DNA of 38,038 nt, taken from Bacteroidales bacterium (lineage in GTDB: Bacteria > Bacteroidota > Bacteroidia > Bacteroidales > Marinilabiliaceae). Both the position numbers and the translations under genes were made by a program. The stretch covers positions 1-38,038 of the forward strand of contig QKIO01000073.1 of assembly GCA_003251015.1 (NCBI GenBank), given 5' to 3'. Below are positions 6,396-37,837 of this stretch, piece by piece. The notes beneath the pieces were generated by a model that saw only the letters and a list, made by a program, of their open reading frames with translations, searched no databases and had not been told where the DNA came from. How positions within the stretch are numbered: the first letter of the stretch is position 1; each line of letters starts with the position of its first letter.

Positions 6396-7091
6396 ATGTC
6401 TCAAAAAGTTATAAAACTACTAGACTTATGCTGTAAAGCCGGGGGTTGTTCTATGGGTTACCATAAAGCTGCTTTGGATTTAGGTTATAAAATAGAGATA
6501 ACAGGCATTGATATTGAGCCACAAGCAAATTATCCGTTTGAGTTTGTCCAGGCTGATGCAGTTGAGTTTCTTAAAAGCAATTGGCAAGACTACACACATT
6601 TGCATGCTTCACCACCTTGTCAGGAGTACAGTGTTTCAACTGCTCATTTAAGACAAAAAGTGAAAATTTATCGTGATAACCTGGATGAACTTCGTGAATT
6701 AATGCAAAAGACAGGTTTGCCAGGTGTTATTGAAAATGTGCCAAATGCACCCTTACGACCAGATATTGTATTACGTGGTGATATGTTTGGATTAAAAGTA
6801 TTACGCAAACGTCATTTTGAACTAGTGAATTGGTGGGCAATGAACCCTGTTATGCCAAAGAAAAATGGTTCTGTTGCCGAAGGTGATTATGTTTCCGTTT
6901 ATGGCAAATGTGGGATTAAGAAGTCAGGTAAGGGAAAGGCTGTTCAGCCAAAGTTTAAGAAGCGTACAATCAAAGAAACATGGAAATATGCCATGGGAAT
7001 TGATTGGATTACCAGGGATGAAGAATTAGCCGAAGCAATTCCCCCGGAATACACAAGATTTATTGGTCGTGAATTTTTCAGAACATCATAG
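6396..7091 (+). CDS. C5 cytosine-specific DNA methyltransferase-like protein
   Basis: LLDLCCKAGGCSMGYHKAA motif I-like, ASPPCQEYS (catalytic PCQ), GVIENVPNAP (ENV). Confidence 0.85.
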   Translation: MSQKVIKLLDLCCKAGGCSMGYHKAALDLGYKIEITGIDIEPQANYPFEFVQADAVEFLKSNWQDYTHLHASPPCQEYSVSTAHLRQKVKIYRDNLDELRELMQKTGLPGVIENVPNAPLRPDIVLRGDMFGLKVLRKRHFELVNWWAMNPVMPKKNGSVAEGDYVSVYGKCGIKKSGKGKAVQPKFKKRTIKETWKYAMGIDWITRDEELAEAIPPEYTRFIGREFFRTS

Positions 7092-10995: not shown

Positions 10996-11871
10996 TTAAG
11001 TACTCATAGGCTCTTCAAACAATACTGCACCCGAAACGCTACTCACATACTTCGGCTTATACAGCATAATATCGGTATAACCTGCATTATGATTCACCTT
11101 CACTGGCATTTCGTACTTTATCGAACCTTCGAAGGGATTGGTAGCTTCCAAATTCTTTTCTAGCCACTCGCACAGTTCCACTATCGAAGACTTGTCGGAA
11201 GTGAAGTATACATACGAATTATTCTTCAGTACGTTTAAAACATCCAAGTAGTCCGAAAGTCTCCAGTAGTTCTTGTAAGTTCCCACCTCTGTACTTAGGT
11301 ACGGTGGGTCTACAAGGAAAACCACATTGTCCAAATGCTTGTATTTGTTAAACAGCTCTTTATAATCATAATTAACGATCATTAAGCCATCTAAATAGCC
11401 ACTAACATCGTAGTTGCTGTGGCGAACACAATTGTATAAGGTTTGTTTTTCGAAGCCCTGCAAGGTGGTAGAATAGTTCATGCTAAACAGCAAGGAAGAA
11501 GACAGGGTAATATAGTCCACGAAGCCTTTCTTTTCTTCTTTGGTGATGTAATTTATAACCCGGTTCTTAATTTCGTTAGGCAACTTTTTATCCTTATGAC
11601 AATCTTTTACTATGTTCCTAATGTGTTCGAGCATGTTGTTGGTTCTGTCAGCATTTAACAACCTTTGGTGGTAGTCATCAAAATCGTTGTAAATCACTTG
11701 TGCATCAGGTCGCTCACGCTTAACGGTGTGAGCCAACAAACCACTGCCACCAAATAAATCTATAAACAAGGTTTCGTCCTTAAAGCTGTTTAAAGCCTGT
11801 TTAAATTGTTTTAAATAACGTCTCTTTTGCCCCATAAAAGGTAATGGGGCACTCGAAAATGTTCTGTTCAT
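10996..11871 (-). CDS. Dam-like (D12 class) adenine-N6 DNA methyltransferase
   Basis: PFMGQKRRYLKQF, FIDLFGGSGLLAHTVK, VFLVDPPYLS (DPPY). Confidence 0.9.
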   Translation of the reverse strand: MNRTFSSAPLPFMGQKRRYLKQFKQALNSFKDETLFIDLFGGSGLLAHTVKRERPDAQVIYNDFDDYHQRLLNADRTNNMLEHIRNIVKDCHKDKKLPNEIKNRVINYITKEEKKGFVDYITLSSSLLFSMNYSTTLQGFEKQTLYNCVRHSNYDVSGYLDGLMIVNYDYKELFNKYKHLDNVVFLVDPPYLSTEVGTYKNYWRLSDYLDVLNVLKNNSYVYFTSDKSSIVELCEWLEKNLEATNPFEGSIKYEMPVKVNHNAGYTDIMLYKPKYVSSVSGAVLFEEPMST

Positions 11872-11907
11872 TCAATAAAAATGTTTTTGATTACTTATAT
11901 TTGCAAT

Positions 11908-12040
11908 CTCTCACAACATGTACAAAAAAAGGTGCGCGAACACCGCCCAAAGGCTTAATGGCCTCCGGCGTAGTGTTCGCGCACTTTTGTGTATTGAGAG
12001 GTGAGAGTCTCAATATGAGTCGGAGGCTCTTTTACCTCCT
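11908..12040. ncRNA. Structured intergenic element with a minus-strand rho-independent terminator
   Basis: 12-bp perfect stem GTGCGCGAACAC/GTGTTCGCGCAC (11932-11943/11973-11984); 8-bp stem 11992-11999/12008-12015; GGAGG/CCTCC; U-tract on the minus strand at 11924-11930. Confidence 0.6.
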
Positions 12041-12047
12041 TTAAGTT

Positions 12048-12587
12048 TTATTTATTAGCCTCTAAAAAGGCTTTTAATTCCTTATAAGTTTCAAACTTCA
12101 CCTGAAAATCGATTACCTTATTAGGGTATGTCACATTCCAGTTTTCAATTACCGCATCCAACATCATTATGCCCTCATCCGTCCACCTTGTGCAATTGCA
12201 GGGTATTAGCTTTATTGAGTTGGTAGGGACTTGTATCTCTACTCCCTCAACTTCTACGGTGTCAGTTTCCTTGATGTAATCAAAAATGAATTCAGGAAAT
12301 GATTGATAAACAAAGCCAGCATATTGCTTAACTGCGGGGATGATTTCGACTGGCATTAAGAAGTACTTGAACAAAGGCGGGTATTGTTCGTCCTGTAACC
12401 AAGCCTGTAATTCATCTTCGCTATTAAATACATAATCAAAGTCATAACCGTCTATGTATTGATTGAAGGCAAAGAGCTTTTTGTATGAGTTTCCTAAGAG
12501 CTCAATATCCTGAAATTTATCCTTGACGATCTCTTGGTAATTGTCAGGATTATATTTTTGTGCTTGTATCAATCCTATCTTTACCAT
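12048..12587 (-). CDS. Hypothetical tail-associated protein
   Basis: Distal gene of the tail-fibre cluster. Confidence 0.55.
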   Translation of the reverse strand: MVKIGLIQAQKYNPDNYQEIVKDKFQDIELLGNSYKKLFAFNQYIDGYDFDYVFNSEDELQAWLQDEQYPPLFKYFLMPVEIIPAVKQYAGFVYQSFPEFIFDYIKETDTVEVEGVEIQVPTNSIKLIPCNCTRWTDEGIMMLDAVIENWNVTYPNKVIDFQVKFETYKELKAFLEANK

Positions 12588-36532: not shown

Positions 36533-37837
36533 TTATATGAAATCTAATGACTGGTTTTCAAATGTTGATTTTAACCATGTAGTAGTTATAGTTTTATCAA
36601 ATTCCAATTCTTTAACTAGTCCCACTTCAGGAGTGATACTTAAAAATTGCACATCATTTTTTATTTGATTGTAACTCTGCAAAAAACTACAAGTAGGTTC
36701 CCATTTTTTGTAATATGGGATTGATTCACTTTTTACATCTGCATCTAAAAATGAGATAGTCTTAACATTATCACTAAACACATAACCTTTAGCTTGATTA
36801 TGAAAATCAACAACACTTGAGAAAGGGCCTATTGGGATTATTTTAACATCTGGAATTACACCAGTCACTTTTTTAAAATGATTTAGTTTTGTTTGTAAAT
36901 AAAACTTTGCCATCATATCTTCTACAAAAAATACTGCATCTGGAGAAATATCTTCTTGGTATGCAATCTCTCCAATTGCTCTAGCTGGAAAACAGTTTTC
37001 ATGCACTACAATGTTACCATGTACATCATACTCTAGGAAAATAATATTCTTACAATTCTTAATTAAACTAACAGAATGGGTAGAAAATATTGTTACTATA
37101 TTTTTCTCTATTGATATAGTTTTAAGAAAATTATATAAACTAATCTGAACTTTTGGATGTAATGCCAATTCGAATTCATCTATAAGTAAAAGTGAATTCG
37201 ATTGCATTGATTTCAAACCTATTAATAGATTTAGAATTAATATTTCACCAAAACTAAAATTCTTTTCTGAATAATATTGGTTCTTATTTCCGACCTTCCC
37301 TTCTTTTAAAAGATATGCAATATTATTCCGATGATTAGCAAATACTCCACGTGCTTTAGCGTCTATGCTTATTGTTCTTAACTCAGAAAACTTTTCTGTC
37401 AAGAATATTGTGTTCATTGCATCAATTAGCCACTGGTCTGCTTTTCTAATTTTATGTACATTTAATTCTTCATTATGTACATATAGCCTAGCTCCTGTTG
37501 GTGGAAAAAACATAACATTATTAAATCCAAATTCTTTCAATATTTTACTATTGCCTTTGGGTTTAGGTGTCCACCTTGTTTTTCTATAGGCATATTCAAC
37601 TTTCTTATTATTTACAGTGTAAGTTACATTACCCTTAAACTCATCAATTGTTCCATTAATTGAGGTTTTCATATTATCTCTAAAGGCATTTCCATATCCA
37701 ATTCTATGAATACAACTCAATAACGTTGACTTTCCAATTCCATTGACACCTGTAAGAAGATAAACACCTTTCTTTTTGGGGATATTAAACTCTAATCTTT
37801 TAATATTCTTTATGTTATTAATAGTAATGTCAGCCAT
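36533..37837 (-). pseudogene. Host AAA ATPase (ATP-binding, ABC/OLD-like), 5' part, probably truncated by prophage insertion
   Basis: LLTGVNGIGKSTLL (Walker A), FSFGEILILNLLIGL (signature-like), SLLLIDEFELALHP (Walker B), IFSTHSVSLI; stop codon lies at the phage junction. Confidence 0.75.

Follow-up and report, generated by a model that had tools for sequence, protein, structure and literature searches.

In phage Mu, the DNA-modification gene mom is controlled transcriptionally by C and Dam and translationally by Com (references in PMC4461284), and the com-mom region is not known to carry an antisense structured RNA. Short phage RNAs that lie in cis, antisense to a regulated transcript, include lambda OOP and c4. 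The locus described here resembles com-mom in that a modification gene sits at the late-region end of a Mu-like phage, with extra control (in our case inferred), and Mom itself (PF25680) neighbors the element in some related loci. However, the gene in the window (the whole analyzed stretch, 38,038 bases) encodes an N6 adenine methyltransferase (phrog_56) rather than Mom. As for OOP and c4, a short RNA would come from the strand opposite a phage transcript. Unlike them, the element is a covarying double-pseudoknot fold, offers two partners for one segment, and is distributed phylum-wide. Like intrinsic terminators, it has a GC-rich hairpin and a U-tract on the late strand; unlike them, it also has long-range helices that covary and, on the opposite strand, a promoter box.

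We consider it very likely that the element is the gene for a phage-encoded structured RNA, with the caveat that transcription is inferred, as there are no expression data. The family is probably new and without a relative in Rfam, whereas its regulatory logic may be a variant of known antisense control. Neither the window nor sets of 14 and 12 loci gave a gathering-threshold match in Rfam 15 (6S-flavo, Flavo-1, and Bacteroidales-1 included), and the sub-threshold matches were miRNA-type or other probable chance hits. ARAGORN found no tRNA or tmRNA in the window, and no description of such an RNA was found in the literature searched. A riboswitch or leader attenuator should lie in the 5′ UTR of a sense gene, and this is not the case, the next gene in the plus direction being convergent. 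The position expected of a cis-antisense RNA, opposite the leader of a candidate target gene, is found in all resolved loci. One earlier partial sighting is possible: the GUCCY-hairpin motif of Bacteroidetes and Proteobacteria (PMC2864571, Table 1), which is only listed in the main text, with doubtful RNA status, and has no Rfam entry. Its name recalls the GUCCU at the rod tip of one of the two architectures described below (architecture 2), but its consensus and alignment were not compared with ours.

The element in a Mu-like prophage

The window, whose contig is also an IMG/VR entry, is a Mu-like prophage of Bacteroidota (a transposable phage), with genes for a MuA-type transposase, MuB-type ATPase, terminase, portal, protease, sheath, and tape measure. 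In the early region, a further DNA methyltransferase (phrog_363) is encoded at 6396-7091 (plus strand), and an AAA_21 ATPase (PF13304, AbiEii-type annotation), possibly a defense gene, lies at the right end (36533-37837, minus strand). The element occupies a 176-nt gap (11872-12047) flanked by two minus-strand genes, the final one of the late operon and that for the N6 methyltransferase. A 66-aa open reading frame across the gap (11844-12044, plus strand) was taken to be a chance occurrence because its sequence is not conserved among relatives. The features are as follows.

10996-11871, minus strand: DNA adenine methyltransferase (phrog_56; N6 MTase), the modification gene after the element (family match and relatives)
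11896-11903, plus strand: -7 promoter box TATATTTG (Bacteroidota TAnnTTTG)
11908-12050, plus strand: structured noncoding RNA, inferred extent (z = -7.6; covariation; match to model R1)
RNA ends, plus strand, inferred: start at about 11907-11908; end at about 12050, perhaps as far as 12080
11908-11914, plus strand: 5′ strand of helix PK1 (CUCUCAC), presumed RNA 5′ end; pairs with 12001-12007
11922-11930, minus strand: U-tract after the rod, which would make the rod a late-operon terminator
11928-11988, plus strand: rod, arms 11928-11947 and 11967-11988 (about 16 bp plus an inner CGCC/GGCG)
11948-11954, plus strand: apical 5′ arm (CAAAGGC), partial partner of segment a and its near-complement family-wide
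11961-11967, plus strand: segment a (GCCUCCG), rod tip; pairs with segment b to form helix PK2 (covariation)
11992-12015, plus strand: P2 hairpin (8 bp), loop containing the PK1 3′ strand; architecture 1 members only
12001-12007, plus strand: PK1 3′ strand (GUGAGAG), within the P2 loop
12021-12027, plus strand: segment b (CGGAGGC), partner of a or a′
12028-12034, plus strand: conserved U-rich stretch (UCUUUUA) immediately 3′ of b
12035-12039, plus strand: segment a′ (CCUCC), alternative partner of b (b/tail complementarity across loci)
12048-12587, minus strand: last gene of the late operon, convergent with the RNA; no family match
12057-12072, plus strand: terminator-like hairpin AGCCT/AGGCT followed by TTTAATT, a possible RNA 3′ end, inside the end of the late gene

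A preliminary description, made from the sequence alone, had proposed the pairings, and all of them were confirmed when positions were rechecked. The rod arms (11928-11943/11973-11988) are 94% complementary and include a 12-bp perfect core, and the gap also holds the 8-bp hairpin (11992-11999/12008-12015), a GGAGG/CCTCC pair (12022-12026/12035-12039), and two long-range matches: CTCTCAC (11908-11914) with GTGAGAG (12001-12007) and GCCTCCG (11961-11967) with CGGAGGC (12021-12027). The fold of 11880-12060 is far more stable than expected by chance (z = -6.5 on the plus strand and -8.3 on the minus strand; none of 200 shuffles was equally stable). Model R1 matches the window at 11896-12037, with the caveat that the window sequence was in its training set.

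The same description had placed a -7-like box upstream on the plus strand and a U-tract on the minus strand, and had called the late gene a tail-fiber gene. The box TATATTTG held, but begins one base earlier than it had been placed. The U-tract is also present: on the minus strand the rod is followed by CTTTTTTTG, so that a GC-rich stem and U-tract, as required of an intrinsic terminator, are both there, and termination of the late operon is compatible with the data. The tail-fiber label is not supported, as the protein has no family match.

Covariation, functional strand, and a possible alternative pairing

Close DNA relatives of the element were found neither elsewhere in its own genome nor in phages or plasmids, and the only match to the exact rod pattern among viral contigs was the window's own contig. 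Homologous gaps were instead reached through relatives of the methyltransferase in IMG/VR and GTDB genomes. In many cases the gap was about 165-190 nt, with the same architecture but a different sequence, and well over 100 phage loci of Bacteroidota share that architecture. The shared order, on the window's plus strand, is the TAnnTTTG box, PK1 5′ strand, A-rich linker, rod with segment a at its tip, PK1 3′ strand, segment b, U-run, and second complement a′. Architecture 1 (the window type) is distinguished by P2, an additional hairpin whose loop contains the PK1 3′ strand. In architecture 2 (the Flavobacterium type), P2 is missing and PK1 is longer, and a′ is often located in the loop of X, a small 3′ hairpin. 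Conservation is strong at the level of the fold and weak at the level of sequence.

Covariation, scored on plain MAFFT alignments, was 0.416 for architecture 1 (37 loci) compared with 0.200 when shuffled, and at most 0.149 when partners were slid; for architecture 2 (33 loci) it was 0.291 compared with 0.129. In neither case did any of 500 shuffles reach the observed value. Within the 37 architecture 1 loci, 30 of 38 pairs show changes on both sides, including all seven pairs of PK1 (somewhere in the alignment) and 12 of the 16 pairs of the rod helix; such changes also occur for the P2 hairpin (helices 4 and 5). Cells of the a:b helix are paired in 98.8% of cases in architecture 1 (37 loci) and 99.7% in architecture 2 (33 loci). 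PK1 strands rarely fit across loci (the longest duplex averages 10.3 bp vs. 6.4 bp across loci). Absence of covariation in the long-range helices had been named in the preliminary description as a refutation, and the opposite was found, as both covary across dozens of loci.

The strand on which the structure acts was assessed with 75 representatives sharing <80% identity, found by a search that treated G-U and A-C alike. In a:b there are 64 G-U and only seven A-C cells (p about 1e-12), and thus the plus strand is the functional RNA. PK1 shows no strand preference (14 vs. 21). The raw count for the rod (55 A-C vs. 18 G-U) could be read as evidence for the minus strand, but we set this aside: 29 of the 55 A-C cells fall in or beside segment a, where the excess is discounted because a must match b there. 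Outside that segment the rod has no clear preference (26 A-C vs. 15 G-U). Given this lack of preference in the rod and PK1, some of the structure may have its function on the minus strand. Separately, the pairing of segment a with the apical 5′ arm is interrupted in most loci by a conserved A-C mismatch, which leaves it weaker than a:b.

The promoter box is also retained. Its frequency was determined using an architecture 2 core pattern that did not include the box, run over viral contigs, where it has at least 120 matches; 14 of 120 were excluded as false (10 with GC > 0.5 and four without structure). An exact TAnnTTTG lies 36-62 nt upstream in 102 of the 106 structure-bearing matches, and a one-nucleotide variant in the other four. 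The PK1 5′ strand begins 0-6 nt downstream from the box. No clear -33 box is present in the window copy, but relatives show an excess of TTG 19-20 nt upstream of the -7 box (13 and 7 occurrences, with about two expected at each position). Given covariation of both long-range helices together with the retained box, the stand-alone plus-strand RNA that the preliminary description considered possible is well supported, with expression unproven. On the minus strand, at least six T occur in the 9 nt after the rod in 57 of the 75 representatives; because this U-rich stretch is found in most loci, the rod may also stop late transcription.

Segment b has a second potential partner. At least five consecutive Watson-Crick pairs can form between b and its own tail (a′) in 80% of loci, compared with 14% for shuffled tails and 48% for tails of other loci; the modest contrast with the latter arises because GGAGG/CCTCC is common. 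Where b departs from GGAGG, a′ is often altered to match. As b can be bound by a′ instead of a, the RNA has two possible 3′ folds that exclude each other (calculated duplex energies are -20.0 kcal/mol for a:b and -8.8 kcal/mol for b:a′). That b alternates between the two in the cell is a possibility that we infer, not an observation. The preliminary description had noted neither this competition, nor the spread of the element through the phylum, nor its association with DNA-modification cassettes.

Distribution and neighboring modification genes

A MuA-type transposase was found on 28 of 40 contigs tested. Model R1 located the RNA in 33 methyltransferase loci that the first scan had missed, mostly further upstream. 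In many of these, it lies ahead of genes encoding a conserved HTH protein of 80 aa and a thymidylate synthase-like protein. Hankyphage-type loci, with their short gap before the methyltransferase, were first assumed to lack the RNA; this was rejected, as the covariance model places it further upstream. The 80-aa protein (phrog_17790) heads the modification cassette directly after the RNA promoter in L071, L064, L305, and other hankyphage-type loci, and its C-terminus has a weak match to Mor/late transcriptional activators (E about 6e-4 to 4e-3, below the Pfam cut-off). Searches of genomes with the architecture 2 pattern gave zero of 295 and four of 393, two of the four being convincing, so copies there are sporadic.

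Some carriers are described phages. The RNA is found in an unannotated gap of Flavobacterium phage fF4 (MN850656.1, about 31112-30984, minus strand), and the paper on that phage remarks that the last genes in prophages of this kind usually include one for DNA modification. It also lies in an unannotated gap of hankyphages p00 (BK010646.1) and jmh43_hp (PV107405.1), at 40546-40693 on the minus strand. The hankyphage paper (PMC12135933) reports directional RNA-seq of Bacteroides thetaiotaomicron jmh43 with and without repressor silencing, and a term search of its text returned nothing on an RNA at that place. Because it is present in a phage with published stranded RNA-seq, the RNA is directly testable.

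Among 181 distinct loci, the gene directly behind the promoter lies on the opposite strand wherever it was resolved. These neighbors are N6 methyltransferase (85), thymidylate synthase-like (41), ABC ATPase (17), C5 methyltransferase (12), Mom (8), and ParB-type methyltransferase (6). Nine loci had no match to those references; the three that were tested (L296, L188, and L295) have a D12 methyltransferase, five others are D12-like by sequence, and one is unresolved. The neighboring cassette is thus almost always one for DNA modification, with at least six unrelated enzyme types. The N6 methyltransferase is overrepresented, as many loci were gathered by way of that gene, which does not apply to the pattern-based set, and the ABC ATPase was classed as modification-related from context only. 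This ABC-type ATPase (228-231 aa; phrog_11143; e.g., L174, L206) fills the modification slot in its 17 loci, and its role is inferred from position. Thymidylate synthase-like neighbors are very frequent in the pattern-based set (L172, L181, L196, and others), suggesting nucleotide hypermodification in many of these phages.

Possible roles of the RNA

Structure, functional strand, promoter box, and synteny with modification genes are shown. That the RNA controls the modification cassette is inferred, and we regard the case for and against as roughly balanced, as transcription, the switch, and cassette control itself have not been shown. In the proposed mechanism, an RNA of about 140-165 nt would be made from the plus strand, starting beside a host-type (-33/-7) promoter, with its rod closed by the 5′-end helix PK1 and the rod tip (a) pseudoknotted to the 3′ segment b. 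Its gene occupies the space separating late operon and cassette and runs on the opposite strand, its promoter lying at the first cassette gene. Late transcription must cross the RNA gene to reach the cassette, from which we infer that the cassette would be kept off outside late infection. Silencing would occur via convergent transcription and via base pairing of the antisense RNA with the leader of the cassette, and the rod, as a terminator on the late-mRNA strand, may aid it. Against cassette control, the constant synteny could reflect common descent of a fixed slot instead of a functional connection, and an antisense regulator would not need so conserved a pseudoknot.

The strongest rival, which we consider less likely, is a trans-acting phage RNA (protein-binding, decoy, or anti-defense) that does not regulate its neighbor and occupies the modification slot since both serve anti-restriction or late functions. 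It is supported by the RNA having its own promoter box, by a fold conserved strongly and a sequence conserved weakly, and by retention of the same fold beside unrelated enzymes. However, a free-standing trans-acting gene would be expected to move, whereas nearly every copy is at the head of a cassette, and copies in genomes are sporadic (the zero of 295 and four of 393 noted above). Unlikely, in our view, is an attenuator or switch in which a:b versus b:a′ decides whether plus-strand transcription stops near b or reads on, as antisense RNA, into lysis or tail genes. In its favor are the two conserved partners of b, the U-run right after b, the X hairpin that holds a′ in its loop in many architecture 2 members, and the two duplex energies given above; against it, there is no sense gene downstream in the plus direction, and a:b could form before a′ is transcribed. 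We give very little weight to the element being solely a strong bidirectional terminator or insulator of the late operon. The rod does have a U-rich stretch on both strands (more so on the minus), but this function needs neither a promoter box nor covarying long-range helices. A DNA-level element (a recombination, replication, or packaging signal) folding as single-stranded DNA would fit a large palindrome at a module boundary where neighboring genes change, but is all but ruled out by the excess of G-U over A-C in a:b, which fits one-strand RNA pairing, and by the retained box. An integron attC site was rejected, as there is no cassette context and the motif does not fit.

Returning to cassette control, a bolder reading, also inferred and offered only as a possibility, is that phylum-wide bistable RNAs gate phage DNA modification through b swapping between a and a′. 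If this is true, the state of the RNA would set the start of viral DNA modification, whichever enzyme the phage carries. The finding adds a complex, widespread RNA family to phages that include the common gut hankyphages, and points to a shared layer of RNA control over unrelated DNA-modification enzymes, control that has so far been worked out mainly for Mu mom.
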